A DNA stretch of 64,000 bases. It comes from Knoellia sp. S7-12. GTDB taxonomy: Bacteria > Actinomycetota > Actinomycetes > Actinomycetales > Dermatophilaceae. Shown in pieces: positions 8,575 to 54,498 of the stretch. The DNA lies in assembly GCF_040518285.1 (NCBI RefSeq), contig NZ_CP155449.1, positions 3,410,001-3,474,000 on the forward strand, read 5' to 3'. The position numbers and the translations under genes are program-made. Numbering within the stretch: the first letter of the stretch is position 1; each line of letters starts with the position of its first letter. The notes below the pieces were generated by a model. The model had not been told where the DNA came from. It saw only the letters and a program-made list of their open reading frames with translations, and made no database searches.

Positions 8575-9174
8575 TCAGACGGTGGTCCGACCTGCGATGA
8601 GTGCGAGGTAGGCCTCGGCGCTCGCCGGGCCACCGAGCCTGGCGTGATGGTCGACCACGAGGCAGGGCGTCTCCGTGACGTCACCGTCACGTGCGGCAGC
8701 CACATCGGCGGCCACCTCTGCCGAGCGCTCTGACGACGCAAGCACGTCACCCACTCGGTGCTCCTCCAGGCCGGCTTCGGCCGCCAAGCGCTGCAGGATC
8801 CGGTGTGAGCTGACGTCGAGTCCCTCGGTGAACACTGCGGCATACAGCCGTTCGAGCATCGCGCCCTGAAGCGCCGGACCACCGAGGGTGAGGCCCAGCG
8901 CGACGAGCCGGTGAGCATCCGTCGTGTCGGCGTCGGGAGGCTCCGTCACGGCGATGTCGATGCCATCCGGCCTCGCGGCGACCGCCACCCGCCGGAGCTC
9001 ATCGCGAGTCACCGCGGCCCCAGGGAGGGCGTGATGGACGAGGACGATGTCGTGGGGCCGCTCGGACGCCATCACCGCCGCTTCGACTCGACGCTTCGCG
9101 ACATAGGACCACGGGTCCGTGATGTCGCCCCAGAGATCAAGCGGGAGGTCGGCCATCGCTCCACTGAACCACAT
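8575..9174 (-). CDS. DsbA/FrnE-fold oxidoreductase-like protein without CxxC
   Basis: This is about 199 residues with the thioredoxin-like DsbA fold used by FrnE and HCCA-isomerase/GST-kappa proteins: an N-terminal beta strand running into ITDPWSYVAKRRVEAA and a C-terminal GVTETPCLVV-type element (GDVTETPCLVVDHHARLGG) carrying the cis-Pro. The N-terminal position where DsbA has CxxC is DPWSY, so disulfide chemistry at that site is not expected. The frame opens to 9258, but GGAGG eight bases before ATG 9174 and a terminator hairpin lying in the longer version favour 9174. It converges on the YibE/F gene. Confidence 0.75.
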   Translation of the reverse strand: MWFSGAMADLPLDLWGDITDPWSYVAKRRVEAAVMASERPHDIVLVHHALPGAAVTRDELRRVAVAARPDGIDIAVTEPPDADTTDAHRLVALGLTLGGPALQGAMLERLYAAVFTEGLDVSSHRILQRLAAEAGLEEHRVGDVLASSERSAEVAADVAAARDGDVTETPCLVVDHHARLGGPASAEAYLALIAGRTTV

Positions 9175-9192
9175 GACCACGCCCTCCAACGA

Positions 9193-9232
9193 CGAACGTC
9201 CCCGGGCCATGCTGCGGGCCTGGGGACGTTCG
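9193..9232 (-). terminator. Terminator of the NlpC/P60 gene
   Basis: Two 16-base arms (9193-9208 and 9217-9232) are complementary apart from one G-U pair, with an 8-base loop. The hairpin follows the NlpC/P60 stop at 9282 by about 50 bases and ends just before the ribosome site of the DsbA-fold gene. Confidence 0.7.
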
Positions 9233-9281
9233 TTCGGCGGGGTATGCCGGGTGGTCACCTTCGTGAGGCGACCGGGCTCCC

Positions 9282-10109
9282 TCAGAAGCGGCCGTAACCC
9301 GTGGGGGTCTGCCAGATTGCACGCTCGCTCGAAAACTTGCCGGTGCGCGGCGAGTCGATGAACTTGCCGTCACCGGTGTAGATGCCGACGTGCCACGCGG
9401 GGCTACCCATGAAGACGAGGTCGCCGGGGCGCGGGCTCGACACCGGCGTGGCAGCGGCCTGCTGGGCCGAGGCGGTGCGGGGGATCGAGACGCCGGCCTT
9501 GCGGAAGACGTACTGGGTGAAGCCGGAGCAGTCGAAGCCGGCCGGCGTGGTGCCGCCATAGACGTAGGCGATGCCGAGCAGGCTCCGAGCGATGTTGACG
9601 ACTCCGCTCGCGGACTGTGCCACGTTCTGCGTGACCGGCTTGCGGGCCACGGACCGGCTCGCCGACTTCGCGCTGCGCGTCGAGGACGCGGTCGAGCGCT
9701 GATTCGAACGCTGACTCGAACGCTCTGCGGCGGCCGGGCGAATCTCGGTCGTCTCTTCACGCACGACGACAGGCCTGGGCTTGGGCTTCGGCTTCGGCTT
9801 GGCGACGACCGTGACACCGGTGACGCCGACGACCTCGGCCTTGACCGGGGTCGAGACAGCCGGGGCGCTGATGGCCGGGGCTGCAGGCGCGGCGATCGGG
9901 GTTGCCGGGACGCTGGTCGTGACCTTCGCGGCGGTGTCGGGGGCAGCCGACGCGGGGAGGGCGAACGCGGCCACGAGTCCACCCGAGGCAGCAAGCACCG
10001 CGGAGGCCTTGGCGCCGGAGACACCGGCGCGCGTGGCAATGACGGACAGTTCGGAGACAGGGTTGTGTCGTCCGGGCGCGCGGTGACGCCCATGGGTGGA
10101 GTGAGCCAC
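9282..10109 (-). CDS. Secreted NlpC/P60 cell-wall endopeptidase
   Basis: This is a 275-residue exported peptidoglycan hydrolase. After a long basic N-terminus and a signal segment ending ASAA comes an Ala/Pro/Val-rich region, a Lys-Pro repeat linker (VVAKPKPKPKPRPVVV) suited to spanning the wall, a Ser/Arg linker, and the C-terminal NlpC/P60 domain with catalytic Cys in GFDCSGFTQYVF, His in WHVGIYTGDG and the following polar region. It starts at GTG 10109 with GAGAGG as ribosome site. A c-di-AMP-type riboswitch lies immediately upstream, with its 3' end running into that ribosome site. It would cleave stem-peptide bonds during growth or cell separation. Confidence 0.93.
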   Translation of the reverse strand: MAHSTHGRHRAPGRHNPVSELSVIATRAGVSGAKASAVLAASGGLVAAFALPASAAPDTAAKVTTSVPATPIAAPAAPAISAPAVSTPVKAEVVGVTGVTVVAKPKPKPKPRPVVVREETTEIRPAAAERSSQRSNQRSTASSTRSAKSASRSVARKPVTQNVAQSASGVVNIARSLLGIAYVYGGTTPAGFDCSGFTQYVFRKAGVSIPRTASAQQAAATPVSSPRPGDLVFMGSPAWHVGIYTGDGKFIDSPRTGKFSSERAIWQTPTGYGRF

Positions 10110-10116
10110 GTGTGAA

Positions 10117-10245
10117 CCTCTCGATGCCTACGGGGTGAGCTGTCGGGTTCGGGCGGAGGTTCTGCCCGGCCAGTCGAAACTGACTTAACCCCAAGGAGCA
10201 ACTGGCGGTTGCCCCAGAATTGGGTCCCCCGCTCCTGTCAAGCGG
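10117..10245 (-). promoter_or_regulatory. ydaO/yuaA-type c-di-AMP riboswitch
   Basis: On the minus strand the leader contains the conserved ydaO blocks in order: GGGGGACCCAATTCTGGGG near 10213-10230, then CGAACCCGACAGCTCACC and GTAGGCATCGAGAGG next to the start codon (10117-10151). These elements and their placement before a secreted cell-wall hydrolase match the c-di-AMP OFF riboswitch of actinobacteria. High c-di-AMP would be expected to lower expression of the hydrolase. The 5' boundary is approximate. Confidence 0.85.
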
Positions 10246-10417
10246 ATTGCGATGCAGTCGCCAACGGTGACAGGACTCAGCAATCCGTCGCGACAACTCA
10301 CCCCAGGGGAGGACGAGCCGATGCCACGGTACCCAACCCCATGGGCAAAGTCACGTTTGGGTCACGACGAGTCGCTGATGCGCCCGAAACAGCGCCTGGC
10401 GAGCCGCCAGTCCGGGG

Positions 10418-10460
10418 ACGACGAAGGGCGGGGACCGTCAGGTTCCCCGCCCTTCGTCGT
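10418..10460 (-). terminator. Terminator of the secreted KP-linker protein gene
   Basis: Perfect 17-base arms (10418-10434 and 10444-10460) flank a 9-base loop. The hairpin sits 16 bases beyond the stop of the minus-strand gene ending at 10476. The stretch 10246-10417 shows no gene and no other clear structure. Confidence 0.8.
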
Positions 10461-10475
10461 GGCGTTGGACGCGAG

Positions 10476-11354
10476 TCAGCTCACGGAGATGTGCACGTGG
10501 TCGTAGTGGTTGGCGGTGACCGATCCCCGGTCGTCCATGGAGCGCCAGCCCGACGAGCCGGCGAGCCAGATGCGCTGCTCCCAGATGACGTAGGTGATGT
10601 TGAGCCTGCCCATGTTGTTGGTGGCCCACTGGGCGACAGCGTCGCCCGTCGAGCCGGACACCATGACGTCGACAGCCTTGCCGGTGCCGTGGTCGCCGGC
10701 TCCGGCGCGAAAGCCGCCAATGTTGGTGATGCCGAAGTTCGAGCGGACTGCCGAGCAGACCGTTGACGCGCCATTGCCCAGGCCCTTGCCGCTGCACCAG
10801 CCGACATAAGCACCGGAGCCGACGCCGGAGGGAACCGACGACGATGACGAGGACGACTTCGAGGAAGAGGAAGAGGAAGAGGAAGAGGACGACTCATCGG
10901 TCTTCGTCGTGGCCTTCTCGGAGGGCTCGGCGCTCTTCTGCTCGGGCTTCTGCTCGGGCTTGGGCTTGGGCTTGGGCTTGGGCCTGGGCTTCGCGACGGC
11001 GGTGACGCCGACGGGGCCTGCCGCGACCTTGACGCTCTCGGCAGCGGCCGGGGCGGTCACCGATGTGCCCGCTTTGGCCACACCGGCGCGGGCCGAGCTG
11101 CGGGAGGCGGTGCCCTGCACGGCGTCGGCGCGGTCGCGGGCAACCAGGGCAGAGGTCTGGCTGGACAGCTCGACCTGCTCGGGGGCCGCTTGGACCGGGA
11201 TCGCCAAGGCAGCAGCAACGCTGGTGGCCAGGCCAAGGCCGACAAGACTCTTGACCGCGGTGGGTCTCGAGATCGACGAGAAAGTGCTGAGATCGGGGAG
11301 TCGGCTGCGCTTGTCAGCGCGGCGGCGACCGGAACGGGTGACAGGGAAAATCAC
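10476..11354 (-). CDS. Secreted protein with KP linker, Ser-run and M15-like C-terminal domain
   Basis: This is 292 residues starting at GTG 11354. A basic N-terminus and hydrophobic segment (VGLGLATSVAAALAIPVQAA) form the signal peptide. A Lys-Pro linker (AVAKPRPKPKPKPKPEQKP) and a run of some 18 Ser residues, encoded by a (GAGGAA)n-type microsatellite around 10861-10889, lead to a C-terminal domain of about 115 residues. That domain has GFRAGAGDHGTGKAVDVMV and ends HYDHVHISVS; the spaced H..G...D and HxH resemble the zinc site of M15/D-Ala-D-Ala-type or extensin-like domains. A peptidoglycan or wall role is likely. It shares linker and layout with the adjacent NlpC/P60 protein but lacks the riboswitch. 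Confidence 0.8.
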   Translation of the reverse strand: MIFPVTRSGRRRADKRSRLPDLSTFSSISRPTAVKSLVGLGLATSVAAALAIPVQAAPEQVELSSQTSALVARDRADAVQGTASRSSARAGVAKAGTSVTAPAAAESVKVAAGPVGVTAVAKPRPKPKPKPKPEQKPEQKSAEPSEKATTKTDESSSSSSSSSSSKSSSSSSSVPSGVGSGAYVGWCSGKGLGNGASTVCSAVRSNFGITNIGGFRAGAGDHGTGKAVDVMVSGSTGDAVAQWATNNMGRLNITYVIWEQRIWLAGSSGWRSMDDRGSVTANHYDHVHISVS

Positions 11355-11432
11355 GAAAGAGAACCTCTCGGGCGGATCAGGGATGACTCCACGGTAACGG
11401 TGGGATCAGCCAAAGTCACATTCCGATAACAG

Positions 11433-11453
11433 CCCCTGGCTTATCCGCAGGGG
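11433..11453 (-). terminator. Possible short terminator after the ideR-like gene
   Basis: CCCCTG and CAGGGG form a 6-bp stem with a 9-base loop, 50 bases beyond the IdeR-like stop. It is weak compared with the other terminators in the window. Confidence 0.35.
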
Positions 11454-11459
11454 CCCTCA

Positions 11460-11503
11460 GGGTCGATCTCGGGTTGATCGTGGGTCGATCGTGGCTCGAT
11501 CCA
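11460..11503. repeat. Four 11-bp tandem repeats
   Basis: Four consecutive 11-mers, GGGTCGATCTC, GGGTTGATCGT, GGGTCGATCGT and GGCTCGATCCA, end 3 bp before the IdeR-like stop codon and lie about 105-150 bp upstream of the secreted-protein start at 11354. One unit per helical turn puts every TCGATC core on the same DNA face, which would suit cooperative protein binding. Confidence 0.6.
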
Positions 11504-11506
11504 GAG

Positions 11507-12214
11507 TCAGGCTGGTGCTGCGGCTCGGGCCACGAAGACGTGCGAAGCGATGTCATCGGGCAGAGAGACACCGGTCGACTCATCAGCACCGGCGAGCGCG
11601 GCAATGACCCGTCCACCCTCGCGGCGCACCACGGCCAACTGCCCGGGCAGGAGACCCGCGGCGGTGATGAGACCGAGCGCTTCGTGGTCGACCTGGGCGG
11701 GCTCGCCGATGCGCCGGACGGTCACGGTGGTGGGCTGGATCTCGGCCACCTCGCTCAGCGTCGACAGGCCCAGTCGGAAGTCCTCTCCGAGCGCCTCCCC
11801 GAACTCGTCGAGCCCGGGGATCGGGTTGCCGTAGGGCGATTCGGCGTGGTCGGCGAGGAGGGCGAGGATCTTGACCTCGACCCGGTCGGACATGACGTGC
11901 TCCCAGCGGCACGCCTCGTCGTGGACGTACTCCCACTCGAGGCCGATGACGTCGACGAGGAGGCGCTCGGCGATGCGGTGCTTGCGCATGACCCGCGTCG
12001 CGAGGCGGCGACCCTCGACGGACAGCTCGAGGTGTCGGTCACCAGCAACGGCCAGCAGACCGTCGCGCTCCATGCGCGCGACTGTCTGCGAGACGGTGGG
12101 ACCGGAGTGGCCGAGACGCTCGGCGATCCGGGCGCGCAGCGGCGTGATGCCTTCTTCTTCAAGTTCGAAGACGGTGCGGAGATACATCTCCGTGGTGTCG
12201 ATGAGATCGGTCAC
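11507..12214 (-). CDS. ideR: DtxR/IdeR-family iron-dependent regulator
   Basis: This is 235 residues with the three-domain layout of IdeR/DtxR. The N-terminal helix-turn-helix (LIDTTEMYLRTVFELEEEG, GHSGPTVSQTVARMERDGLL) is close to textbook IdeR. The metal/dimer domain contains RHRIAERLLVD-like RKHRIAERLLVDVIGLEW, HDEACRWEHVMSD with the Cys/Glu/His ligands, and a C-terminal SH3-like domain follows. Charged with Fe(II), such proteins repress siderophore and iron-uptake genes and activate storage. It starts at GTG 12214, overlapping nothing, and its stop abuts four 11-bp tandem repeats. No obvious iron-transport gene is adjacent. Confidence 0.93.
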   Translation of the reverse strand: MTDLIDTTEMYLRTVFELEEEGITPLRARIAERLGHSGPTVSQTVARMERDGLLAVAGDRHLELSVEGRRLATRVMRKHRIAERLLVDVIGLEWEYVHDEACRWEHVMSDRVEVKILALLADHAESPYGNPIPGLDEFGEALGEDFRLGLSTLSEVAEIQPTTVTVRRIGEPAQVDHEALGLITAAGLLPGQLAVVRREGGRVIAALAGADESTGVSLPDDIASHVFVARAAAPA

Positions 12215-12229
12215 GACCCCAGTCTCTCA

Positions 12230-13474
12230 TCACGATCGGACAGGCCCGACCGCTGCGCGGCGTGGATCGTATGCCGGCAGCCATCGTGCGAGCCACGGTG
12301 CACCTGCCAGGACGACCAGGCCGAGAACAACACACGCGGCGCCCAAGCTTGCAAGGACAGTGACAGCACTGACGAGCAGAGGCGCACCGTTCTGGCCGAT
12401 GAGCGAGAGGAACCTCCAGACAGAGAGGAACTGCGCTCGACCGACGACAGGGGCGGCATCGGCGCCGAGCGTCTGCACGATGCCCGAGCCCAGCCCGTTG
12501 CCGACTCCTATCAGCGTCGAGACCACTGCGACTGTGGCGAAGCCTTGGGCCAGCGGGAGCAGCACCATCCCGACGCCGAGCACGAGGAGGAAGGGCACCG
12601 CGACCCACACGCGACCGAACCGGTCCATGACCGAACCGGCTGGATAGAAGAGAAGCACCTCGGCACCTCCGGCTATCCCGAAGATCAGCGCCGTCTGACT
12701 GTCCGTGACGCCGACCGACTCCGCCCACAAAGGCACGATGACGAACCGTCCCTGACGTGCGGCCCCGATGAGCAGGACACCCACGCCGATCGTCAGGAGC
12801 ACGCGGCGGTGCTCGCGCAGGAGGCCGGGCAGGCTGATGCGCTCCCCCACGCCGCCGGGCCGCTCCACCCCAGACGCCGCCCGGTCGCTGGCGCCGTCGT
12901 GATCCCGCAGCCCGACCCACGCCCAGACTGCAGCCGACAGGCCGGCGACGACAGCGACGGCATACGCCGCCTGTGTGCCCCACACGAGGATGAGGGGCGC
13001 CGCGATGAACGGGCCGACGAAGAGTCCAACGCGCTGCACCCCACCCATCGTCGACATTGCTCGTGCGCGGATCCGCACCGGCGCGCGAGCCGTGAGCCAC
13101 GACTGGCGAGCCAGCAGGAAGACCGAACCCGTCATTCCCATGAGGCCGATGGCGATGCCGAGCGTCCACAGATTCGGCGCGAAGACCGCGAGCGCGGCTC
13201 CCAGAGCGTCCACGACGGCGGCCCCAGCGAGGGCTCTGCGCTCGCCGATGCGGGCCACGAGCGAACCCGCTGGCAGCGTCGAGACAAAGGCTGCGATGCC
13301 CTCGATGAGGACGAACGCCGCCGCCACCGCAACGCTCGCCCCGAGGTCCCGGGCGCTCAGCGCGACGATGGGCAGCGAGGCACCCACTCCGACCGACCAC
13401 ACGGCCGTGGGTCCGAACGCCGGCAACGCGATGCTGCGCAACGAGAAGTCGTCAGTGGCTGACACGACCGCCAC
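12230..13474 (-). CDS. MFS transporter
   Basis: This is about 414 residues with twelve hydrophobic helices and major-facilitator loop motifs: GSLVARIGERRALAGAAVVDALG between helices 2 and 3, and GSVMDRFGRVWVAVPFLL after helix 8. Substrate is unknown; the pattern fits drug/metabolite efflux. The reading frame is open far upstream to 14053, across the divergent gene on the other strand, but that part has no transporter character. I place the start at GTG 13474 because a -10-like TACGTG lies 5 bases before it; GTG 13465 is the alternative. The promoter region is shared with the divergent gene at 13496. Confidence 0.88.
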   Translation of the reverse strand: MAVVSATDDFSLRSIALPAFGPTAVWSVGVGASLPIVALSARDLGASVAVAAAFVLIEGIAAFVSTLPAGSLVARIGERRALAGAAVVDALGAALAVFAPNLWTLGIAIGLMGMTGSVFLLARQSWLTARAPVRIRARAMSTMGGVQRVGLFVGPFIAAPLILVWGTQAAYAVAVVAGLSAAVWAWVGLRDHDGASDRAASGVERPGGVGERISLPGLLREHRRVLLTIGVGVLLIGAARQGRFVIVPLWAESVGVTDSQTALIFGIAGGAEVLLFYPAGSVMDRFGRVWVAVPFLLVLGVGMVLLPLAQGFATVAVVSTLIGVGNGLGSGIVQTLGADAAPVVGRAQFLSVWRFLSLIGQNGAPLLVSAVTVLASLGAACVVLGLVVLAGAPWLARWLPAYDPRRAAVGPVRS

Positions 13475-13483
13475 CCTGACACG

Positions 13484-13489
13484 TACGTT
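13484..13489 (+). promoter_or_regulatory. -10 hexamer TACGTT, leaderless start
   Basis: TACGTT ends six bases before the GTG at 13496, the spacing of a leaderless transcript. It lies inside the palindrome ACGTACGT, whose other strand could serve the divergent MFS gene. Confidence 0.5.
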
Positions 13490-13495
13490 GGACGC

Positions 13496-14182
13496 GTGCA
13501 CGTGATGATCCCTCGTCGATACAACGGGCCCCCGACGTCGGGCAATGGCGGGTGGGTGAGCGGCCTCGTGGCCGCGCACACCCCCGTGTCGCCCGAACGG
13601 CCTGCGGTGTCCGTGCGTCTGCACCTGCCACCACCCCTCGATCGCGAGCTGGCCCTCGAGACAGGGGAACTCACGACCCTGCGTGACGGTGATGCGGTCG
13701 TCGCCAGCGCCTCTCACGCGCCCACCCCTGCCGGCGACCTGCCACAGCCGGTCACTCTCGTCGAGGCGCGTGACGCCGAGACCCGGGCGATCACGCCTCA
13801 GGAGCACCCGTTCCCCACGTGCTACGGCTGCGGACCAAACCACCCGACCGGCCTGCGGCTGCGCTCCGGACCCGTGGACGACACGAGCGGCCGGTATGCC
13901 GCCACCTGGACTCCGCTCGACGTGTCCGGTCCGGTGGTGTGGGCCGCGCTCGACTGTCCGGGTGGCAAGGCGGCCGGTTTCCCCACGACGCTCATGGTGC
14001 TCGGCACGATGACCGCTCAGATCTTCACCGCTCCGGTCGCCGGGGAGGAGCACATCGTGCTGTCATGGTCACGTGGCGACGACGGCCGCAAGCGCCACGC
14101 AGCGTCCGCGCTGTTCACGGCCGACGGGCGCCTGCTCGCCCGGGCCGACCAGACCTGGATTGCCATCGATCCACCCGCTTGA
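13496..14182 (+). CDS. Hotdog-fold thioesterase-like protein
   Basis: This is 228 residues with two hotdog-like halves. The opening RRYNGPPTSGNGGWVSGLVAAH and the central FPTCYGCGPNHPTGLRLRSG are typical of a thioesterase-superfamily group in actinobacteria that carries the CxxCG....GL motif. Acyl-CoA thioester hydrolysis is the family expectation; the substrate is unknown. No Shine-Dalgarno is visible, but TACGTT sits six bases before GTG 13496, supporting that start as leaderless; ATG 13505 is an alternative three codons in. It precedes the citrate synthase gene by 70 bp. Confidence 0.75.
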   Translation: MHVMIPRRYNGPPTSGNGGWVSGLVAAHTPVSPERPAVSVRLHLPPPLDRELALETGELTTLRDGDAVVASASHAPTPAGDLPQPVTLVEARDAETRAITPQEHPFPTCYGCGPNHPTGLRLRSGPVDDTSGRYAATWTPLDVSGPVVWAALDCPGGKAAGFPTTLMVLGTMTAQIFTAPVAGEEHIVLSWSRGDDGRKRHAASALFTADGRLLARADQTWIAIDPPA

Positions 14183-14252
14183 CCCACCCCAACCAGTGGC
14201 GGCGTGCACAATGATGCTGCCCGACACCGGAAGACCCGAGACGAGGGAACTT

Positions 14253-15401
14253 GTGACACCGCAGGCCCAGACCCAACAGCCCGCCGCTGCCCAGCCCGCC
14301 ACCGCGGATCCTGACTTCCGGCCGGGCCTCGAAGGCGTCATCGCGTTCCAGTCGACCATCGCTGAACCCGACAAAGAAGGTGGCGCGCTGCGATATCGCG
14401 GCGTCGACATCAAGGACCTCGTCGGACGCGTGAGCTTCGGCCAGGTGTGGGGGCTCCTCGTCGACAACGAGTTCGACCCCGGCCTGCCGCCGGCCGAGCC
14501 GTTCCCGCTTCCGGTCCACACCGGCGACATCCGCGTGGACGTGCAGTCCTCTCTCGCCCAGCTCGCGCCGGTCTGGGGCTTCAAGCCGCTGCTCGACATC
14601 GACGCGACCGAGGCCCGTGACAACCTTGCTCGCGCCTCGGTCATGGCGTTGTCGTTCATCGGCCAGTCCGCGCACGGCCAGTCGTCGCCGATGGTTCCGC
14701 AGAGCCGGGTCGACGAGGGCAGGACCATCGTCGAGCGCTTCATGATCCGGTGGCGCGGCGAGCCCGACCCCAAGCACGTCGAGGCCATCGACGCCTACTT
14801 CATCTCCGCGGCCGAGCACGGCATGAACGCCTCGACCTTCACCGCACGCGTCATCGCCTCGACCGGCGCCGACGTCGCGGCCTGCATGTCCGGCGCGATC
14901 GGCGCCCTGTCGGGGCCGCTGCACGGCGGTGCCCCCTCGCGAGCCCAGCACATGATCGAGGGTGTCGAACGCACGGGTGACGCCACGGCATACGTCAAGG
15001 ATGTTCTTGACCGTGGCGACCGCCTCATGGGTTTCGGCCACCGCGTCTATCGCGCCTACGACCCGCGCGCCGCTGTCCTGCGCGACACCTGCAAGCGACT
15101 CGGCGCCCCCCGCTATGAGGTCGCCGTCGAGCTCGAGAAGGCGGCCATCGCGGCCCTCGCGGAGCGCCACCCCGAGCGGGTCATGGAGACCAATGTCGAC
15201 TACTGGGCGGCCGTGCTCCTCGACTTCGCCAAGGTCCCCGGCGACATGATGACCCCGCTGTTCGTCGCCGCACGTACGGCTGGCTGGGCGGCGCACATCC
15301 TCGAGCAGAAGGAGACCGGGCGGCTCATCCGCCCGAGTTCTCGCTACGTCGGTGAAGCCACCCGCGGCATCGAGTCGGTCAAGGGCTACCGCGCGAGCTG
15401 A
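14253..15401 (+). CDS. citA: Citrate synthase II
   Basis: This is 382 residues with the citrate synthase fold: GALRYRGVDIKDLVG near the N-terminus, MSGAIGALSGPLHGGAPSRA and GFGHRVYRAYDPRA with the two catalytic His residues, and METNVDYWAAVLLDFAKVP with the catalytic Asp. It condenses acetyl-CoA and oxaloacetate at the entry of the TCA or methylcitrate cycle. The length and motif spelling match the second actinobacterial citrate synthase (GltA2/CitA type). GTG 14253 follows a GAGGGA ribosome site; two in-frame ATGs at 14211 and 14214 have none. A GGCATAC-bearing terminator follows. Confidence 0.95.
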   Translation: MTPQAQTQQPAAAQPATADPDFRPGLEGVIAFQSTIAEPDKEGGALRYRGVDIKDLVGRVSFGQVWGLLVDNEFDPGLPPAEPFPLPVHTGDIRVDVQSSLAQLAPVWGFKPLLDIDATEARDNLARASVMALSFIGQSAHGQSSPMVPQSRVDEGRTIVERFMIRWRGEPDPKHVEAIDAYFISAAEHGMNASTFTARVIASTGADVAACMSGAIGALSGPLHGGAPSRAQHMIEGVERTGDATAYVKDVLDRGDRLMGFGHRVYRAYDPRAAVLRDTCKRLGAPRYEVAVELEKAAIAALAERHPERVMETNVDYWAAVLLDFAKVPGDMMTPLFVAARTAGWAAHILEQKETGRLIRPSSRYVGEATRGIESVKGYRAS

Positions 15402-15428
15402 ACCGGCACCCGACCCGTTGACGACGCC

Positions 15429-15466
15429 GACACGGCATACCCGAAATTCTTGGGGTATGCCGTGTC
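15429..15466 (+). terminator. Citrate synthase terminator built from inverted GGCATAC motifs
   Basis: Perfect 14-base arms (15429-15442, 15453-15466) with a 10-base loop. The arms contain GGCATAC and its complement GTATGCC, so the stem is made from one inverted pair of the window's most abundant heptamer. Between here and the serC start at 15608 I see no gene. Confidence 0.8.
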
Positions 15467-15565
15467 TCTCGTTGGTGAGTGGCGTTCAGCAGAACTCGGG
15501 GAACCGTGCCGTGCCGTCGGTGACCGTCTCGCCAGCCGGCAGGCGGGGCGACGTCCGGTGGGTGA

Positions 15566-16732
<1,167 letters not shown>

Positions 16733-16748
16733 CCTGAGCTGACCCTCT

Positions 16749-16816
16749 CAAAACGCGACCTACCCCTCAGTAAGTGTGGTGATCACCACGCTTACTGAGG
16801 GGTAGGTCGCGTTTTG
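16749..16816. terminator. 68-bp near-perfect palindrome between convergent genes
   Basis: Arms 16749-16782 and 16783-16816 are complementary except T16775/G16790, which still pairs as G-U in one RNA orientation. There is no unpaired loop; the centre is GTGGTGATCACCAC. It lies between serC (+) and the small-peptide/MFS operon (-), the place for a bidirectional terminator, but is far longer than a terminator needs to be. Confidence 0.75.
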
Positions 16817-16850
16817 GGGGATGTTGAGCGCGAGGCGACGTGCTGCCCGC

Positions 16851-16937
16851 TCAGGTCAGGACGGCATACGCGATCGCCACGATGAGGACGATCGCCAGGA
16901 CGCCGAGCGTCATCCGCCGACGAAAGGTGGGCGTCAT
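16851..16937 (-). CDS. 28-residue single-helix membrane peptide
   Basis: ATG 16937 to TGA 16851-16853 encodes a peptide with a basic start (MTPTFRRRMTL) followed by one hydrophobic helix (GVLAIVLIVAIAYAVLT). Its ATG overlaps the TGA of the MFS gene upstream (ATGA), the same coupling used between marR and that MFS gene. The helix and overlap argue for a real gene: possibly a small accessory subunit of the transporter. No family is recognised, and the peptide is too short for motif evidence. Confidence 0.55.
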   Translation of the reverse strand: MTPTFRRRMTLGVLAIVLIVAIAYAVLT

Positions 16938-18235: not shown

Positions 18236-18684
18236 TCGGCCGCCACCCGGGTGAGGATCACGGTGGCCCGCTGCAGGATGGCCTGCTCCTCGGGTTCCAG
18301 ATGGGACACGCGGACCGACATCCAGGCATCCCGCTTGCGGCGAATCTCCTTGAGGACCCGGCGGGCCTCGGGGGTGAGGGTCACAATGACCTGACGTTTG
18401 TCCGTGGGGTGCTGAGCGCGCTGGACGAAACCGAGCTCGGCAAGACCACCCACCGTGCGGGTCATGCTTGGCGCACTGACCCGCTCGATCTCGGCCAGCT
18501 CGCCGGGGGTGCGAGGCGCCTCCTCGAGGCGGCACATGACGGAGAAGTGGTGTGGCGCAACGGCGTCCGTGCTCTCGTATCGGACACGGCGCGAGATCCG
18601 CATGCAGGCCAACCGGAGCTCACCGGCGAGGGAAGACACCGCGGCGGGCCGCAGGGCGGCATACGTAGGCGGTTGTTCACTCAT
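18232..18684 (-). CDS. MarR-family repressor
   Basis: This is 150 residues with the MarR winged-helix core: LRLACMRISRRVRYE, TPGELAEIERVSAPSMTRTVGGLAELGFVQRAQHPTDKRQVIVTLT with the DxR wing motif. It probably represses its own operon with the MFS transporter and releases DNA on binding the exported compound. There is no Shine-Dalgarno; a TAGGCT -10 element lies seven bases before ATG 18684, so the mRNA is probably leaderless. A 9-bp inverted repeat overlaps that promoter, consistent with autoregulation. Confidence 0.93.
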   Translation of the reverse strand: MSEQPPTYAALRPAAVSSLAGELRLACMRISRRVRYESTDAVAPHHFSVMCRLEEAPRTPGELAEIERVSAPSMTRTVGGLAELGFVQRAQHPTDKRQVIVTLTPEARRVLKEIRRKRDAWMSVRVSHLEPEEQAILQRATVILTRVAAE

Positions 18685-18685
18685 G

Positions 18686-18719
18686 ATACTTAGCCTAACT
18701 CATTACCTGTGCTAAGTAT
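18686..18719. promoter_or_regulatory. MarR operator and leaderless promoter
   Basis: ATACTTAGC (18686-18694) and GCTAAGTAT (18711-18719) form a perfect 9-bp inverted repeat with a 16-bp spacer, immediately before the marR ATG. The -10 TAGGCT of marR (minus strand, 18692-18697) lies within it, so a bound dimer would occlude transcription. Confidence 0.65.
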
Positions 18720-18791
18720 TTCCGGTCTCAACCCGCGACCGTGCGTGACACCGAGTGAGCCCTTTGTCTGCCGCTCGCCCCTGCCGCTCGC

Positions 18792-18797: not shown

Positions 18798-18803
18798 TCC
18801 CGC

Positions 18804-45263: not shown

Positions 45264-45383
45264 GGTGATCACGCTAGGTGGGCGAACGGCATACGCGCTG
45301 TGGGTTTTTCCACCCAGCCGACCCTGAGATGTCCCCGGGCACTCAGGGTCCCGGGTCACCGTCCGCACTGGTGCCCGACATCG

Positions 45384-46697
45384 TCAAGCTGAATCGGTCA
45401 TGGTCGCGGTTCGTGACCCTTCGACCCCCAGCCACCGCACCGGGTCGTCGATGACGCGCTGGAGCTGCAGGTAGGCCGCACCCAAGGCAGCCGGCGCCGG
45501 GTGCGGCTCGGCGGCCCGAACCGTGGGTGGTGCCCACGCGGACGACAGGACCCGCTGGTGCAGGGTCTCCTCGACTTGGGGCCGGACGAGCTCAGCGACC
45601 TCTCGCAGATCTCCGCCGAGGACGACCACGGGGACATCGACGACGTTGATGACCGCCGAGAGCGCGTGACCAAGGGCCCATGCGGCGCTCTCGACTGCGG
45701 ACACCGCCAGCGCATCACCGTCGCGGGCGCGCGCAGCGAGTTCGGCGGCGGTGGCGTCCGGAGACAGACCGGCGGCGGCAAGCAGGGCGCGCGTGCCGGC
45801 ATACAACTCAAGACACCCGGTCGACCCACAGACGCACGAGGGACCGTGAGGGTCCACGCTCACGTGGCCGATCTCGCCGGCCCAGCCGTGACGACCGGGG
45901 AGCGGCTGGCCGTCGATGACGATGGCCCCACCGATGCCGATCTCGCCGGAGAGGTGGATGAAGTCGATCAGGCCGCTGGAGTGTCCCGGCCGGTCGAGGC
46001 TCACGGCTGCGGCAGCGAGTTCGGCCTCGTTGCCCACGGTGAGTGGTCCCGCGCCGAGCGATTGTGTGTCGAGGTAGTCGCAGAGGGTGACGTCGGACCA
46101 GTCGAGGTTGGGCGCGCGCAGCAGCAACCCGTCGTCACTGGTGACGATGCCGGGGACGGCAAGGCCAGAACCCACGATGCGCAGCCCGGTGGGAGCGGCC
46201 TTCAGTGCCTCTGAGCCGAGGGACCTCAGACGCGAAAGCACCTCTGCCGGAACGGATTTCGTGAAGTCGCCCGTCTCGATACGTTCGACGAGGACCTCTC
46301 CCGAGAGGTCGACGACCAGGGCTGCGAGGTGTCCGACGTTGACCTGCAGTCCGAGTGCCGCAAGGTGCCCGGCCCGAGCTGCGAGTGGCGTGCCGGGACG
46401 CCCTCGGCGGACACCTGACCGTTCACCCGCGCCGTGGGACGTGGCTTCCTGTTCCGCGAGCACCCCACCGTTGAGCAGATCGTCGACGAGACGCGACGCG
46501 GTCGCACGGGTCACCCCCATCGCTGTGGCCACGTCGGATCGCGTGGGTGGCATCTCGGCGGCAAGGACGGTGGCCACGACCCGCGCAAGGTTGGCGGCCC
46601 GGACTCCCGCCAGGGCCACGGACGCTGGACCGGCAGCAGCGTTGCGGCGGGCAGGAAGGGATGTCGGCACCTCTTGACAGTAGCGCGAACCACTCAT
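45384..46697 (-). CDS. ROK-family repressor (XylR-like)
   Basis: This is a 437-residue ROK regulator: an N-terminal winged helix ([29 protein letters not shown]) and a sugar-kinase-like domain with [26 protein letters not shown] and the zinc-site motif [15 protein letters not shown]. Divergent from xylose isomerase, so very probably a xylose-responsive repressor. ATG 46697 is used; no ribosome site is visible, and the operator touches this start codon. GTG 46670 is an alternative start. Confidence 0.88.
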
Positions 46698-46729: not shown

Positions 46730-47923
46730 ATGACAACGACGTCATCCACCTCCACCCCGACCCCCGAGGACAAGTTCTCGTTCGGCCTCTGGACGGTGGG
46801 CTGGACCGGCATCGACCCCTTCGGGTCCGCCTCCCGCCCGGCCCTCGAGCCGTGGGACTACGTCAAGGAGCTCGCTGAGCTCGGCGTCTGGGGCATCACG
46901 TTCCACGACAACGACGTCTTCCCGTTCGACGCCGACGAGAAGACTCGCAACGAGCGCGTTGGCCGCCTCGCGCAGGCCACCCAGGACGCCGGTCTCGTCA
47001 TCGAGATGGTCACGACGAACACCTTCAGCCACCCCGTCTTCAAGGACGGCGGACTCACGAGCAACGACCGCGGAGTGCGGCGCTTCGGGCTGCGCAAGGT
47101 GCTCGGCGCGGTCGACATCGCCGCCGAGCTCGGCGCCGACACCTTCGTCATGTGGGGCGGTCGCGAGGGCAGCGAGTACGACGGCAGCAAGGATCTCCAC
47201 GCCGCATTCGACCGCTACAGGGAGGGCCTCGACACCGTCGCCGGCTACATCAAGGACAAGGGTTACGGCCTCAAGATCGCGCTCGAGCCCAAGCCCAACG
47301 AGCCTCGCGGTGACATCCTCCTGCCGACCGTCGGCCACGCTCTCGCGATGATCGCGGAGCTCGAGCACGGTGACATCGTCGGCCTGAACCCCGAGACCGG
47401 TCATGAGCAGATGGCCAACCTCAACTACACCCACCAGCTGGCGCAGGCCCTGTGGAGCGGCAAGCTCTTCCACATCGACCTCAACGGTCAGCGAGGGTTG
47501 AAGTACGACCAGGACCTCGTCTTCGGTCACGGCGATCTCATGTCGGCCTTCTTCACCGTCGACCTCATCGAGAACGGCTTCCCGGGCGTCCCGGACGGAC
47601 CGCGCTACACCGGACCCCGTCACTTCGACTACAAGCCGTCGCGCACTGAGCACATGGACGGGGTGTGGGAGTCGGCCAAGGCGTGCATGTCGTCCTACCT
47701 GCTCCTGGCCCAGAAGGCGAAGGCGTTCCGCGCCGACGCGCGCGTTCAGGAAGCCATGGCGTATGCCGGTGTGCTCGACCTCGCGCAGCCCACTCTTGAC
47801 CCTGGCGAGACGATCGAGCAGTTCCTCGCGACCGATGACGGCTTCGACGCGGAGAAGGCGGCCGAGCGTGACTTCGGCTTCGTCCGGCTCAACCAGCTCG
47901 CGGTCGAACACCTCATCGGCTGA
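46730..47923 (+). CDS. xylA: Xylose isomerase
   Basis: This is 397 residues of the actinobacterial class I xylose isomerase: [32 protein letters not shown] with the catalytic His-Asp, [30 protein letters not shown] with the metal-binding Glu, [16 protein letters not shown], and [23 protein letters not shown] with further metal ligands. It converts xylose to xylulose (or glucose to fructose). ATG 46730 follows CTAAGGAG. No xylulokinase is adjacent. Confidence 0.97.
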
Positions 47924-47941: not shown

Positions 47942-48002
47942 CCGGCATACGAAAGGGCGGCCCACCTCATGGGTGGACCGCCCTTCGTCTGGCGTATGCC
48001 GG
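47942..48002. terminator. Bidirectional terminator with inverted GGCATAC pair
   Basis: A long stem runs from CCGGCATACGAAAGGGCGGC to its complement ending GCGTATGCCGG at 48002, with a CCCACC-TCAT-GGGTGG tip and small bulges. It lies between convergent xylA and groEL. The base of the stem is GGCATACG paired with CGTATGCC. Confidence 0.85.
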
Positions 48003-49844: not shown

Positions 49845-49966
49845 CGACGTCGGTATGCCGGTCAGTCAGATTTCGCACCTGCCTCACCTCCGCGCCACAG
49901 CGATGCGTCCGCGCCGTTGGCCGAGTGGACGGCCATCGGCACGGACGCCATCGTCCAGAGGTGGAG

Positions 49967-50696: not shown

Positions 50697-51668
50697 TCAG
50701 GGTCGCTCGATGCCGCGCTCGTCCAGGATCGACTCGAGCAGGGTCGGCTTGGCTGGCATGATCCCGTCGGCTCCAGTGTCGATGATCCGGTTGTAGGTCG
50801 GGGCGTCATCTGGTGCCGAACCCGAGAACCAGACGTGCACGGCATACCCATCGCGGTGAGCACGCGCGACGAATTCCGGTGTCGCGACGGGAATCCCCGC
50901 AAAAGTGACCGGCACCTGGAACGCGACCACGCCAGCGGGCGGTTTCACCCCGCCGAGGAAGTAGTTGATCATCGCGTCGCGCCCGGCCGACATCGGCACC
51001 TGCGGCGCGCGGGAGTGGAAGTCCGCGAGCGCGGTGTCGTTGAACGAGCCGACGATGAGGTCGGTGCGGCCGTTCTTGTTGAGGAGCTGAGCGAGCAGGG
51101 TGCCGGTGCGGATGAAGGAGGCGGTGTCGGCGTCGCTCGTCCCCTTGATCTCGATGTTGATCGGCGTCGCCGGGAACGCCTTGAGCACCTCGCGCAGCGT
51201 CGGGACCATGAAGTCCTTGGGCTTGAAGCCCTCGACCCTGGGGCGGCCGAATCGCGCTCCGCGCAGGGGATATGCGCTCGGGTCGAGTCCGTGGACTGCG
51301 CTGCGTCCCGGGACGAACCAGTGGGCCGCGTCGAGTTCCTTGACCTCATCGAGGGTCTTGTCGAGGACCCGCCCGGTGCCGTTGGTGGTCTCGTCGACCG
51401 TCGCGTTGTGCATGACGACGAGCTCGCCGTCGGCGGTCGACTGGACGTCGAGCTCGATCATGTCGGAGCCGAGGGCGACTGCGCGCCTGAACGCGTACAT
51501 CGTGTTCATCGGCGCCTCGTCCTCTCCGCCGGAGTGCGCCATGTTGAGGACGCGCTGCTCGAGCCACGGGTTCTGGGGCGGCTCAGCCGCGACGGCCGGG
51601 GCGAGCCCGACACCGAGGGTGAGCGTGGCGGCGGACAGGAGGACAGGGAGCAGGCGGCGTCGGCGCAT
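50697..51668 (-). CDS. Secreted glycerophosphodiester phosphodiesterase
   Basis: This is 323 residues with a signal peptide (LLPVLLSAATLTLGVGLAPAVAA) and a GDPD TIM barrel: NMAHSGGEDEAPMNTMYAFRRAV, LGSDMIELDVQSTADGELVVMHNATVDETTNG with the catalytic His/Glu/Asp residues, INIEIKG, and WFSGSAPDDAPTYNRIIDTGADGIM at the end. HRGG of typical GDPDs is HSGG here. It hydrolyses glycerophosphodiesters outside the cell, releasing glycerol-3-phosphate. ATG 51668 is used; GTG 51677 is an alternative. Confidence 0.92.
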   Translation of the reverse strand: MRRRRLLPVLLSAATLTLGVGLAPAVAAEPPQNPWLEQRVLNMAHSGGEDEAPMNTMYAFRRAVALGSDMIELDVQSTADGELVVMHNATVDETTNGTGRVLDKTLDEVKELDAAHWFVPGRSAVHGLDPSAYPLRGARFGRPRVEGFKPKDFMVPTLREVLKAFPATPINIEIKGTSDADTASFIRTGTLLAQLLNKNGRTDLIVGSFNDTALADFHSRAPQVPMSAGRDAMINYFLGGVKPPAGVVAFQVPVTFAGIPVATPEFVARAHRDGYAVHVWFSGSAPDDAPTYNRIIDTGADGIMPAKPTLLESILDERGIERP

Positions 51669-51678: not shown

Positions 51679-52386
51679 TTATCCCCCGGAACCGGCCCCT
51701 GGGTTCCTGTCAGATGAACGTTCCTCACCGACGGCCTTGCCACCAGCGACCCGGGACCGGCGCTCGTCCTGCTCGCGTCGGCGCGTGACCTCGTGCCGCG
51801 CGATGCCGATGGCGAGCAGCACTGGCCAGACGTACTTCGCCTTGTCGAGGACTGCGCGCAACCAGCCCGGTGCCTCCCAGTCCGGCCACGGGATCGCCGG
51901 CAGGTCGATCGAGGGCCAGGGGACGGAGGGGAGGTCGACGTCCGGGACAGGGAGGCCGGGCAGGTCCCAGTCGGGCAGCCACGAGAGGAGGAGCCCGATC
52001 CCCAGCAGCGGGATGAGCACCCTGGCAAGGGCTGCCGTGGTGTGCAGGATCAGGTGGCGGCCCGGGTGGGCACGGATCCGCTCCTCCCGACGGGCGGCCG
52101 CTGACCCCGCCTCCGGCACGAGGTCGATCTCGACGGCGTCGACCACGAGCGTGGCCCGCTTCACCCCGGTCAGACCGGAGCGGATCTGGATCTCTCCGCG
52201 GGCACCGGGCACCGTGGTGCGGGCCACATCGGTGGGCTTGAGGGTGACCCGGTCATCCATGGACTTGTGGGTCGCGACCTCGTCGCCGTTGCAGGACCAC
52301 TCGTACTGCCGACTCATCCCCGTGTCGGCGACCTCCACGCGGTGGTCGCGACCGGCATACCTGAGTTCGAAGTTTTGCCCCGCCAT
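51679..52386 (-). CDS. Unknown membrane protein with Trp-Pro-Asp repeats
   Basis: This is 235 residues. The N-terminal half has beta-rich segments (FELRYAGRDHRVEVADTGMSRQYEWSCNG, VVDAVEIDLVPEAG). One helix (ALARVLIPLLGIGLLLSWL) is followed by a striking run of short units rich in Trp, Pro and Asp (PDWDLPGLPVPDVDLPSVPW, PSIDLPAIPWPDWEAP) and a basic tail. I recognise no family. ATG 52386 is the natural start. It lies 10 bp upstream of the GDPD gene and may share its transcript. Confidence 0.6.
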   Translation of the reverse strand: MAGQNFELRYAGRDHRVEVADTGMSRQYEWSCNGDEVATHKSMDDRVTLKPTDVARTTVPGARGEIQIRSGLTGVKRATLVVDAVEIDLVPEAGSAAARREERIRAHPGRHLILHTTAALARVLIPLLGIGLLLSWLPDWDLPGLPVPDVDLPSVPWPSIDLPAIPWPDWEAPGWLRAVLDKAKYVWPVLLAIGIARHEVTRRREQDERRSRVAGGKAVGEERSSDRNPGAGSGG

Positions 52387-52441: not shown

Positions 52442-52461
52442 CATCAGACCGAAGTCTGATG
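52442..52461 (-). terminator. Short terminator hairpin after the receiver gene
   Basis: CATCAGAC-CGAA-GTCTGATG is a perfect 8-bp stem with a tetraloop in the 160-bp gap between the receiver-only gene and the Trp-Pro repeat gene. The rest of the gap contains one GGCATAC (52481). Confidence 0.6.
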
Positions 52462-52546
52462 TTGGCCACGCCGCACCCACGGCATACGCCACCGGAGGGC
52501 GCCAGCCCTCGATCCTGCCGCTGTCCTGAATCCCTACCCGGGAACG

Positions 52547-53008
52547 TCAGGAGCTCGGATCTTGCATGGGTCCGGACTGGCCACCGCGTACGACGGCTCG
52601 GATGCCCGAGAGAAGCGTTGCCGGGTTGCCGTCCTTGCTGAGGACGCCTGAGGCACCGGCAGCCAGCGACAGCGCCTCGTGGTCCGGGTCCGTTGAGCTC
52701 GTCAGCACGAGCACCCGGGCAGAGGGGCACGAGCGGACGATGAGTCGGGTGGCGCTCAGACCATCCGTCCCGGGCATGGACAGGTCCATGAGGACGACAT
52801 CCGGTCGGGTCGCCTCCACCAGGGCCACCGCATCGTCCCCATCAGCAGCCTCACCCACCCACTCCATGTCCTGCATGCCGAGGAGCAGGTCGCGGATGGT
52901 GTCGCGGAGCAACTCGTGGTCGTCGACCACCACCACGCGGATCGGCAACCTTGCTGCGTCCTGGGTGGGGGACGCCCAGAACGACTCCGAGGGCATGCTG
53001 GCTGTCAT
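52547..53008 (-). CDS. Receiver-only response regulator
   Basis: This is 153 residues made of a single receiver domain (acidic pocket VDDHE, phospho-acceptor Asp in DVVLMDLSMPGTDG, Thr/Ser in LVLTSSTD, Lys in SGVLSKDGN) with no output domain. The wording (MDLSMPG, SKDGN) resembles NarL-type receivers. It follows the kinase gene by 128 bp, with AAGGGG before ATG 53008. It could act as a phosphate sink or protein-interaction switch for the adjacent kinase. Confidence 0.88.
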   Translation of the reverse strand: MTASMPSESFWASPTQDAARLPIRVVVVDDHELLRDTIRDLLLGMQDMEWVGEAADGDDAVALVEATRPDVVLMDLSMPGTDGLSATRLIVRSCPSARVLVLTSSTDPDHEALSLAAGASGVLSKDGNPATLLSGIRAVVRGGQSGPMQDPSS

Positions 53009-53136
53009 CGGTACCCCTTCTGGAGTCGCTTGCCTCTGATGCGGTTGGGGACCACAGGCTGCCGGCCTTGCCTGAGCCGGAGAAATGCGCGCATTCGCGA
53101 TTGTGTCAGGACGACAATCGAAGCACATCCCCCACG

Positions 53137-54498
53137 TTAGGTGCTGCTCAGGCTCAGGTGGTTTGTGGGCAGCTCACCTTTGACTCGGGTGCCCCCGCCG
53201 ATCGAGGAGACGATGCTCATGGTGCCTCCGGCATTGGTCATCATCTCCGAGATGAGGCGCATCCCCAGGTGCCCCTCAGGGCTGGGGAGCGTCGTGTCAA
53301 ACCCCACCCCGTCGTCGAGGACCTCGAAGTTCACGCCAGCATCATCCTGTGCAATCCGGACGAGAATGGACGTGGCCCCGGCGTGCCGAACGGCGTTCTC
53401 CAGTGCCTCGCGGACGGCGCGGTAGGTCAGCCGGTCCACGAGGGGGTGCGGGTTCAGCGGCTCATCGATCTCGAAGCGGACCAGCCCAGCGGGGAGGTCC
53501 CGCTGGATCGCCAGCTCGCGGACCGTCGCGGCCAGCCCTCTGCTGGCCAGGTCCGGCGGGTAGATGTCGGTCATGAGCGTCCGCAGGGTGGCGAGGTCCC
53601 GTCGGATGATGTCTCCCGTCTGCGTCAGGTGCGCTCGCAGTACCCCTCCCTCAGGCAGTTGTCGCGTGTCCGAATCGAGCGAGTATCCGACCCCCGCGAG
53701 GTCCTGGATGACTCCGTCGTGCAGGTCCCGCGCGATGCGTCGGCGCTCGAGGTCGGAGGACTCGACGGCGTTGACGAGCAGCGCTCGCATCTGCCGCTGC
53801 CCACGGTCGACCCGGTGCGCCAAAGAAACCGCGAGGGGCAGCGTCGCCAGGGACAGGACGAGCACTGCCGCGATCGGCAGCGGGAGGATGATGCGGATGA
53901 GACTTCGCGCCTCCTCCGACAGTCCTGGAGTGGGGATGGAGACCTCGAACAGAACGGGCGCGCCTGACGCGTCTCGCGTGCCGGTGTAGACCTCGATGTG
54001 CTGATGCCCCGAACGTTCGGGCTGGCTTCCCTCGTTCTCGCCGTCGGAGATTCTGGACACGGTGGCCTGGCTGCCAAAGACGGCATACTCCTCCACCCCC
54101 AGCTTGACCGTTTGGCCCACCAGGGGGCGCTGGTCGGCCCACAGCACGGTGGCGCGACCGCCACCGGCATCCGCCCACACCTTGATGTCGCCAAGGGACC
54201 CGTCCCGGGATCGGTTCTCCATGACCTCACCCATCCGGGCCAACGCCGCCGGGTCCCGGGCATGGAAGTCGTCGTCGGCCAGCGGCACCACGATCGTCTC
54301 GGCGACGGCGCGGGCCGTGACCTCGGCGTCACGCAGTGCTTCGTTGCGCGCGACAACCCAACTGAGGAGCACGACACCGGTCACCACACCGGTGAGTGCG
54401 ACGAGGTTGCAGACGAGATACCACCGCAGTGCCCGCCGCACCGCGTCGTTCGGTGCTCTCCACCCCTTGGCCCGCACACCACGGGGCTGGGTGCTCAT
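53137..54498 (-). CDS. NarL-type sensor histidine kinase (HisKA_3)
   Basis: This is 453 residues: helix near 27-49, extracytoplasmic sensor of about 150 residues, second helix (IILPLPIAAVLVLSLATLPLAV), HisKA_3 dimerisation domain with RRIARDLHDGVIQDLAGVGY, and HATPase with REALENAVRHAGA and LDDGVGFDTTLPSPEGHLGMRL. It lies 19 bp downstream of its NarL-type regulator and upstream of the receiver-only gene. The divergent oxidase and peroxidase genes suggest an extracellular redox or metal cue. Confidence 0.93.
   Translation of the reverse strand: MSTQPRGVRAKGWRAPNDAVRRALRWYLVCNLVALTGVVTGVVLLSWVVARNEALRDAEVTARAVAETIVVPLADDDFHARDPAALARMGEVMENRSRDGSLGDIKVWADAGGGRATVLWADQRPLVGQTVKLGVEEYAVFGSQATVSRISDGENEGSQPERSGHQHIEVYTGTRDASGAPVLFEVSIPTPGLSEEARSLIRIILPLPIAAVLVLSLATLPLAVSLAHRVDRGQRQMRALLVNAVESSDLERRRIARDLHDGVIQDLAGVGYSLDSDTRQLPEGGVLRAHLTQTGDIIRRDLATLRTLMTDIYPPDLASRGLAATVRELAIQRDLPAGLVRFEIDEPLNPHPLVDRLTYRAVREALENAVRHAGATSILVRIAQDDAGVNFEVLDDGVGFDTTLPSPEGHLGMRLISEMMTNAGGTMSIVSSIGGGTRVKGELPTNHLSLSST

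Follow-up and report, generated by a model that had tools for sequence, protein, structure and literature searches.

The question raised by a 64,000-nucleotide stretch of the chromosome of Knoellia sp. S7-12 (contig NZ_CP155449.1, positions 3,410,001 to 3,474,000; referred to here as the window) is why one short word, GGCATAC, recurs in it so much more often than expected. Knoellia is placed in the Intrasporangiaceae, order Micrococcales (NCBI). We consider it probable that the word, in its 8-mer form CGGCATAC, is a self-recognition DNA-uptake sequence for natural transformation, convergent with the DNA uptake sequence (DUS) of Neisseria and the uptake signal sequence (USS) of Haemophilus.

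An over-represented 8-mer throughout the chromosome

The window contains 42 exact copies of GGCATAC, 24 on the plus and 18 on the minus strand, compared with a mean of 2.26 and a maximum of 7 in 100 dinucleotide shuffles. A preliminary description of this DNA had reported at least 42 copies, divided 24/18 between the strands and occurring about every 1.1 kb; we found the same counts and a larger excess than it gave. All copies but one lie between 8,839 and 54,088 (41 copies, about one per 1.10 kb), the remaining one being at 6,992. In 41 of the 42 the context is CGGCATAC, which heads the window's 8-mers in over-representation under a trinucleotide Markov model (41 observed, 1.2 expected), and GGCATAC ranks second among the 7-mers, behind the overlapping CGGCATA. 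The reported excess of the heptamer is real, but the motif is better described by the 8-mer CGGCATAC, frequently preceded by CA (CACGGCATAC), than by GGCATAC.

The excess extends over the whole genome, a single contig of 4,163,720 bases, in which GGCATAC occurs 2,877 times (1,431 forward and 1,446 reverse) and the reversed word, used as a control, 281 times (128 + 153). The genome-wide count, which the preliminary description had expected to lie near chance if there were no motif, is thus about ten times that of the control; for CGGCATAC it is 2,805, with 79 for the same letters backwards. In a 464-kb sample of the chromosome, made up of the window and 20 evenly spread 20-kb stretches, CGGCATAC was found 280 times with 9.2 expected. 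Its 24 single-mismatch words sum to 316 in the same sample (about 312 expected); mismatches at the first two positions are scarce (15, about 30 expected), and a few words are raised, such as CGGCCTAC (32, 17.5 expected). As the single-mismatch words are neither depleted nor enriched overall, no cloud of decayed copies surrounds CGGCATAC.

Weak preferences flank the core. The base before it is A in 42% and the base preceding that is C in 52% of 325 sites, and the values are 40% and 60% in 255 sites pooled from other genera with the same word. The window's genus also has extra A at position -11 and T-richness 8–14 bases downstream, which the pooled genera share only partly. Although ACGGCATACGA occurs in an Illumina adapter, contamination by adapters was rejected, because the copies have varied flanks and are kept at orthologous positions.

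Selection or drive on the DNA and conservation of sites

Coding copies were evaluated in 335 open reading frames (ORFs) chosen by a simple rule on GC content by codon position, not by annotation. They contain 185 copies, whereas 100 within-gene synonymous shuffles gave 19.5 ± 3.9 copies with a maximum of 30, a 9.5-fold excess. Dipeptides and codon usage, both of which the shuffle accounts for, are thereby ruled out as the source of the excess, codon-pair bias as such lying outside its model. Most of these copies (141 of 185) are in Tyr-Ala and Ala-Tyr frames, and GCA makes up 10.8% of the Ala codons and TAT 25% of the Tyr codons, in agreement with the earlier view that such copies are forced against codon preference. 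The coding copies read 78 times in the sense and 107 times in the antisense direction. Motif density is 0.51/kb inside the picked ORFs and 0.95/kb outside them; a looser pick on more sequence placed 229 sites inside ORFs and 88 outside.

The sites are also kept in relatives (labels beginning with G, g, f and L denote genomes, genera, families and sampled stretches, respectively). When Knoellia sinensis (L001, 80.6% identity) was aligned to the window, 19 of 20 sites were intact, the controls being 692 same-phase neighbouring 8-mers (24% intact) and 6,751 8-mers with three A/T (25% intact). In a more distant metagenome-assembled genome (L004, Actinomycetota bacterium, 74.6% identity), 7 of 11 sites were intact, with 7% and 16% for the two controls. 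Eight short loci, from eight congeners, gave 26 intact sites in 30 comparisons; these cover four sites repeatedly and do not count as independent. The genome-wide count, the codon-neutral excess and the conservation of sites together lend good support to the preliminary description's proposal of a chromosome-wide functional motif; the coding excess reflects selection or drive on the DNA, independent of codons.

Strand symmetry and inverted pairs

The genes dnaA and dnaN are located at the start of the contig, so coordinate 1 was taken as the origin, and the terminus was assumed at the contig midpoint, opposite dnaA. Among 317 sites in 507,721 sampled bases, 149 are on the leading and 168 on the lagging strand (p 0.31; 95% confidence interval 41–53%). 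Polar motifs read by FtsK (FtsK orienting polar sequences, KOPS) and architecture imparting sequences (AIMS) have a strong strand polarity toward the terminus, and this replichore test revealed no such polarity. The absence of strand bias had been taken to argue against Chi and FtsK motifs, an argument that the replichore counts uphold, as does the finding that RecC is undetected in nine of nine genomes of the genus.

Neighbouring copies 8–30 bp apart form 14 inverted and no direct pairs, where random placement gives 2.5 and 2.2, and up to 80 bp apart 20 of 21 pairs are inverted. Perfect stems of the inverted pairs are 8 to 20 bp long, and long T-runs are present at few of the hairpins. Two pairs in the window fold as strong hairpins (z -5.6 to -7.5). 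One, at 15,429–15,466, has copies at 15,434–15,440 (plus) and 15,455–15,461 (minus) in a 14-bp perfect stem and sits between an ORF end at 15,401 and serC at 15,590. The other, at 47,942–48,002, is a nested hairpin whose copies (47,944–47,950, plus; 47,994–48,000, minus) are 51 bp apart and enclose a GC-rich stem; it is flanked by the convergent xylose isomerase and groEL genes. Both had been described as terminators. Their positions would suit that role, and from position both may serve in it, but a terminator scan of 9,000–19,000 did not list the hairpin at 15,429–15,466.

Spread and dialects among relatives

A genome was called motif-positive, by an arbitrary rule, when CGNCATAC reached a density of 100 copies per Mb or more and was at least twice as frequent as the reversed word used as control. 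By this rule 95 of 159 genomes of the family are positive and 64 are not; 29 genera are wholly positive, 20 wholly negative and four mixed, with g95, g99 and g131 borderline. Summed over the 95 positive genomes, CGNCATAC is divided 118,310/118,010 by contig strand, which is not the same as replichore. Genus g113 has two positive genomes (G315 and G373) and one negative (G351), g3 has four positive and one negative (G398), and Arsenicicoccus bolidensis has 11 copies in 14.3 kb and A. piscis none in 21.6 kb. Among 297 genomes drawn from across the order, 24 of them from the family, CGGCATAC outside the family reaches at most about 180 copies per genome and at most about four times its control.

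The preferred form of the word differs among lineages, as assigned from samples of 15–40 kb per genome. CGGCATAC stands nearly alone in, for example, G421, G350 and G403. A CGNCATAC dialect was identified in g115, g96, g102, g3 and Flexivirga caeni, several of which nonetheless use CGGCATAC more often than any other form. A CGGCATCC dialect was identified in g128, g114 and g106, and a CCGCATAC dialect in L028 and, more weakly, in G311. Coding copies exceed those in synonymous shuffles for CGNCATAC (62 vs 6.6 in g115, 36 vs 4.1 in Flexivirga), CGGCATCC (40 vs 7.5 in G379, 28 vs 3.8 in G316, 14 vs 1.5 in G308) and CCGCATAC (10 vs 1.2 in L028). Genome-wide, CGGCATCC occurs 4,480 times in G379, 3,949 times in G316, and 3,816 and 3,838 times in g106, compared with 241–1,336 times in family genomes outside g106, g114 and g128. 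Genus g128 bears both CGNCATAC and CGGCATCC in varying ratio, as would be expected of a lineage changing dialect. In family f19 of the same order, the count is at least tenfold that of the reversed word in 12 of 22 genomes and 3.3–9.6 times as high in the other ten; the excess is weaker there, with 55 coding copies in three pooled genomes against 16.6 by shuffle (maximum 26).

Further candidates contain CGTAC. In g112, g131 and two of the three g95 genomes CGNCGTAC exceeds its shuffle two- to fourfold, but in the window's genome it is at only half of expectation (40 vs 79.7); we regard it as a candidate dialect and do not count it as established. Words around CGTAC exceed the synonymous shuffle (GRCGTACG, 52 coding copies vs 11.8 in G136; CGNCGTAC, 34 vs 9.2 in G314) in samples L104, L114 and L156 (G136, g7), L209 (G314, g112), L212 and L200 (g131), and L201 and L221 (g95), and are candidates either for a further dialect, with A changed to G in the core, or for codon-pair bias. 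In g7, within f1, a shuffle-based scan gave CGTACGCC (33 vs 7.2) and CGAGCAGC (64 vs 21), both at z 9.1; codon bias as the explanation of the CGTACGCC words in G136 was not borne out by synonymous shuffling. The shuffle scan covered 50 groups of samples; those from families other than f1 and f19 (12–57 kb of coding sequence each) gave no 8-mer above a z of about 7.4.

An unrelated word, GAAGGGGG, was identified in motif-negative genera, on both strands and frequently within ACGAAGGGGGC. Its coding copies exceed the shuffle in g8 (24 vs 2.9 in G178, 12 vs 1.7 in G417; weaker in a third sample, 7 vs 1.4), in G066 of g5 (18 vs 4.3) and in Janibacter indicus (9 vs 1.3), whereas the window's own genome has fewer copies than the shuffle (4 vs 13.4 in 400 kb). 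The samples were L105 and L115 (G178), L110 (G286), L152 (G417), L102, L112 and L154 (G066) and L013 (Janibacter indicus). GAAGGGGG may be an alternative uptake-like motif in genera without CGGCATAC.

A strong CCGCATAC signal in L238 (f3) was discarded, as it comes from a CRISPR-like array with a 61-base period at 18,082–20,000, the repeat of which contains CCGCATAC. Separately, AGCAGGGC is over-represented under the Markov model in L040 (Streptomyces sp. NRRL S-350), L042 and L063 (Kitasatospora), with up to 30 copies in 21.6 kb; after synonymous shuffling it is absent from the top words of L042.

Motif-poor stretches

Chromosome positions 700,001–720,000 (L084) have one copy in 20 kb. This stretch encodes a TraG-like coupling protein, an M23/NlpC-P60 protein and a protein matching TrbL weakly, under the cut-off, and judging from these proteins a conjugative element is probable here. 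Near it, at 683,000–694,000 (L241), lies a second Tad-like locus, which has one copy in 11 kb, and two other 20-kb stretches of low density have five copies (at 1.9 Mb) and four (at 2.1 Mb). Both ends of the window are motif-poor. Positions 1–6,991, motif-free, hold a copper-type gene block (multicopper oxidase, DUF305 protein and sensor kinase), and the motif-free 10 kb or so at 54,089–64,000 hold a BTAD regulator, a second multicopper oxidase and a peroxidase-like stretch. These ends may be acquired DNA; plasmid matches to them are short and divergent and cover at most 7% of either query.

Genes for transformation

The genome encodes ComEC (PF03772, 1.9e-47) with competence and metallo-beta-lactamase domains, and a ComEA-like ORF with SLBB and HHH domains adjoins its gene. 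A chromosomal Tad locus encodes TadA-like, TadB-like, two TadE-like (the second below the Pfam cut-off) and TadG-like proteins, together with a small ORF in the Flp position that lacks a Pfam match. Flp pili are needed for transformation of Micrococcus luteus, according to an excerpt of PMC6370729. Named homologues of one Tad-locus protein are mostly from Knoellia or close relatives, and we draw no link from this to the motif.

A probable DNA-uptake sequence and its alternatives

The copy excess, the strand and replichore symmetry, the inverted-pair hairpins and the transformation machinery (ComEC, ComEA-like, Tad/Flp) are features that the motif shares with sequences of the DUS/USS class. Poverty in recently acquired DNA is a further feature of that class, to which the single copy in the 20 kb of the probable conjugative element may correspond, and the class is defined in function by preferential uptake of motif-bearing DNA and by a sequence-specific receptor, both of them predictions here. 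The idea of an uptake sequence, already put forward in the preliminary description, is the best-supported specific reading in view of the symmetry, the inverted pairs, the dialects, the near-absence of the motif from a probable conjugative element and the machinery, from which we infer a receptor, an uptake bias and transformation in this host. We picture a DNA receptor on the cell surface, most probably a minor Flp/Tad pilin or some other component of the ComEA-ComEC route, that would recognise the motif in double-stranded DNA whichever way it is oriented and would promote import of that DNA. Imported fragments would recombine with the homologous chromosome. Because motif-bearing alleles would be taken up more often than motif-free ones, copies would build up at tolerated sites and stay, and foreign DNA would remain motif-poor. 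A change of receptor would shift the preferred word, and dialects would arise in this way.

Inverted pairs of the Neisseriaceae DUS likewise form hairpins after genes. The DUS further resembles the present motif in its thousands of short-word copies and in dialects following phylogeny (Frye et al., 2013, PMC3630211, as excerpted). The sequence here is unrelated, however, with neither GCCGTCTGAA nor a CTG core, the host is an actinobacterium, the uptake bias is a prediction, and ComP-type pilins (PF07963) are undetected in the window's genus. The USS of Pasteurellaceae has flanking T-tracts, which the T-richness downstream of CGGCATAC recalls. Its core of 8–9 bp and strand symmetry are also alike, the flanks here being weak (CA before, T-richness 8–14 bases after). 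It differs in that its sequence is unrelated, that here the single-mismatch excess is absent and uptake bias would follow from the model, and that the GCGG core given for the Hin- or Apl-USS in an excerpt of PMC12616744 is not found in CGGCATAC. With Micrococcus luteus, which is transformed in a Flp/Tad-dependent manner, the window's genome shares ComEC, ComEA-like and Tad/Flp genes; a term search of the Flp-pilus paper on that species (PMC4322843) turned up neither an uptake sequence nor an uptake signal.

Several findings weigh against an uptake role. Copies with one mismatch are not in excess overall, so the exact word would have to be restored quickly or strongly. Density is patchy, ranging from 0.5 to 9 copies per 10 kb across stretches of the window's genome, and the motif-positive genome G337 has no copy in one 20-kb stretch and eight in another. 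ComEC is present in 155 and TadE in 154 of the 159 family genomes, motif-bearing or not, and all 20 ComEC loci compared (18–19 kb; ten motif-positive, ten motif-negative; that of the window's genome among them) contain both ComEC and ComEA-like ORFs; being near-universal in the family, ComEC, TadE and ComEA were rejected as the discriminating gene. Pilins of PF07963, which we take to be the N-methyl pilin class to which ComP belongs, occur in 4 of 159 family genomes without link to the motif and in none of the window's genus, so that a ComP-like pilin was rejected and the receptor would differ in kind from ComP. No receptor was found, as none of the genes tested (ComEC, TadE, ComEA-like, PF07963 pilins) tracks the motif, and one literature search for Knoellia together with natural transformation yielded a single paper, on another subject.

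Other functions could account for part of these observations. The strand-symmetric spread and the intergenic enrichment would also suit a binding site for an intracellular chromosome-organising or segregation protein acting without strand polarity; yet about 2,800 exact sites tolerating few mismatches, the presence and absence within genus g113, and dialects that switch or give way to an unrelated word in related genera are hard to square with a core protein, and we consider this reading unlikely, if not far-fetched. Chi, too, is a sharp word in thousands of copies that differs between species, and these features of the 8-mer would fit a Chi-like recombination hotspot recognised by AdnAB, RecBCD or a similar helicase-nuclease. 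The likeness, an exact short word in excess, does not extend to replication-strand bias, which is absent here, and inverted pairs are unexpected for Chi. RecC is undetected in the nine genomes of the genus (no search was made for AdnAB); across the family it was found in 29 of the 95 motif-positive genomes and in 36 of the 64 motif-negative ones. On the replichore symmetry and this distribution of RecC we reject a RecBCD Chi role, and a Chi-like hotspot of any kind is improbable.

Biased mutation or repair, which has been proposed for some iterated words, or restriction-modification might instead have produced the excess without selection for function. The Tyr-Ala and Ala-Tyr frames of most coding copies, which perhaps carry little protein cost, and the mismatches at the first two positions at about half of expectation would fit such an origin. 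Repair bias, however, should deplete the one-step neighbours, which together are at expectation, and a mutational origin would need exact words restored at synonymous sites without overall depletion of neighbours; restriction normally causes avoidance of a word rather than excess. The motif-poor, probable conjugative element in the same chromosome would also speak against this explanation if it has resided there long enough, and altogether we find such an origin quite improbable. Least credible is a transcription terminator or RNA element that spread. Stable intergenic hairpins formed by inverted pairs would be in keeping with it, but the 14 close pairs comprise only 28 of 317 sites, the 185 sites inside picked ORFs run in both directions, few hairpins have a long T-run, and the conservation of single copies already disfavours it.

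To return to a DNA-uptake sequence, discrimination of self DNA in this manner is known from Neisseriaceae and Pasteurellaceae alone, according to the same excerpt of PMC12616744. No such actinobacterial or Gram-positive motif was among the literature matches listed, which left preprints and most subscription papers outside their scope, so that a prior report is possible. We lean slightly toward the view that uptake sequences have arisen here independently for a third time, in what would be the earliest example from Gram-positive bacteria and from a Tad/Flp route, with related dialects in two families of one order, the unrelated GAAGGGGG replacing it in Janibacter indicus and two genera, and self-specificity switched repeatedly within one family. 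If so, sequence-labelled genetic exchange would have evolved repeatedly and beyond Gram-negative bacteria, natural competence would be predicted in many genera, the motif would provide a tag for transforming harmless laboratory strains of these, and the related dialects would allow discovery of the receptor by co-variation.

Copies and neighbouring features in the window

Apart from the four copies in the two hairpins, the word scan of the window placed GGCATAC as follows. An isolated copy lies beside the copper-gene block at 6,992–6,998 (plus), and the last one is at 54,082–54,088 (plus). Intergenic copies are located at 16,863–16,869 and 18,658–18,664 (both plus) and 49,853–49,859 (minus). 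Two minus-strand copies lie within identified genes, one at 29,429–29,435 in the gene of an XPB-type helicase, which is 94% identical to its Knoellia sinensis counterpart, and one at 47,761–47,767 in the xylose isomerase gene. The sole copy without a preceding C is at 38,612–38,618 (plus). The other plus-strand copies are at 8,839–8,845, 12,959–12,965, 14,987–14,993, 21,092–21,098, 23,722–23,728, 25,080–25,086, 27,956–27,962, 30,150–30,156, 32,404–32,410, 34,310–34,316, 38,048–38,054, 41,267–41,273, 45,288–45,294, 45,798–45,804, 50,841–50,847, 52,354–52,360 and 52,481–52,487, and the other minus-strand copies at 9,242–9,248, 12,269–12,275, 13,894–13,900, 21,868–21,874, 23,464–23,470, 27,851–27,857, 33,723–33,729, 36,296–36,302, 36,764–36,770, 37,475–37,481, 38,591–38,597, 41,441–41,447 and 43,318–43,324.

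The window also contains a c-di-AMP riboswitch at 10,113–10,261 on the minus strand, upstream of the ORF at 9,282–10,109.

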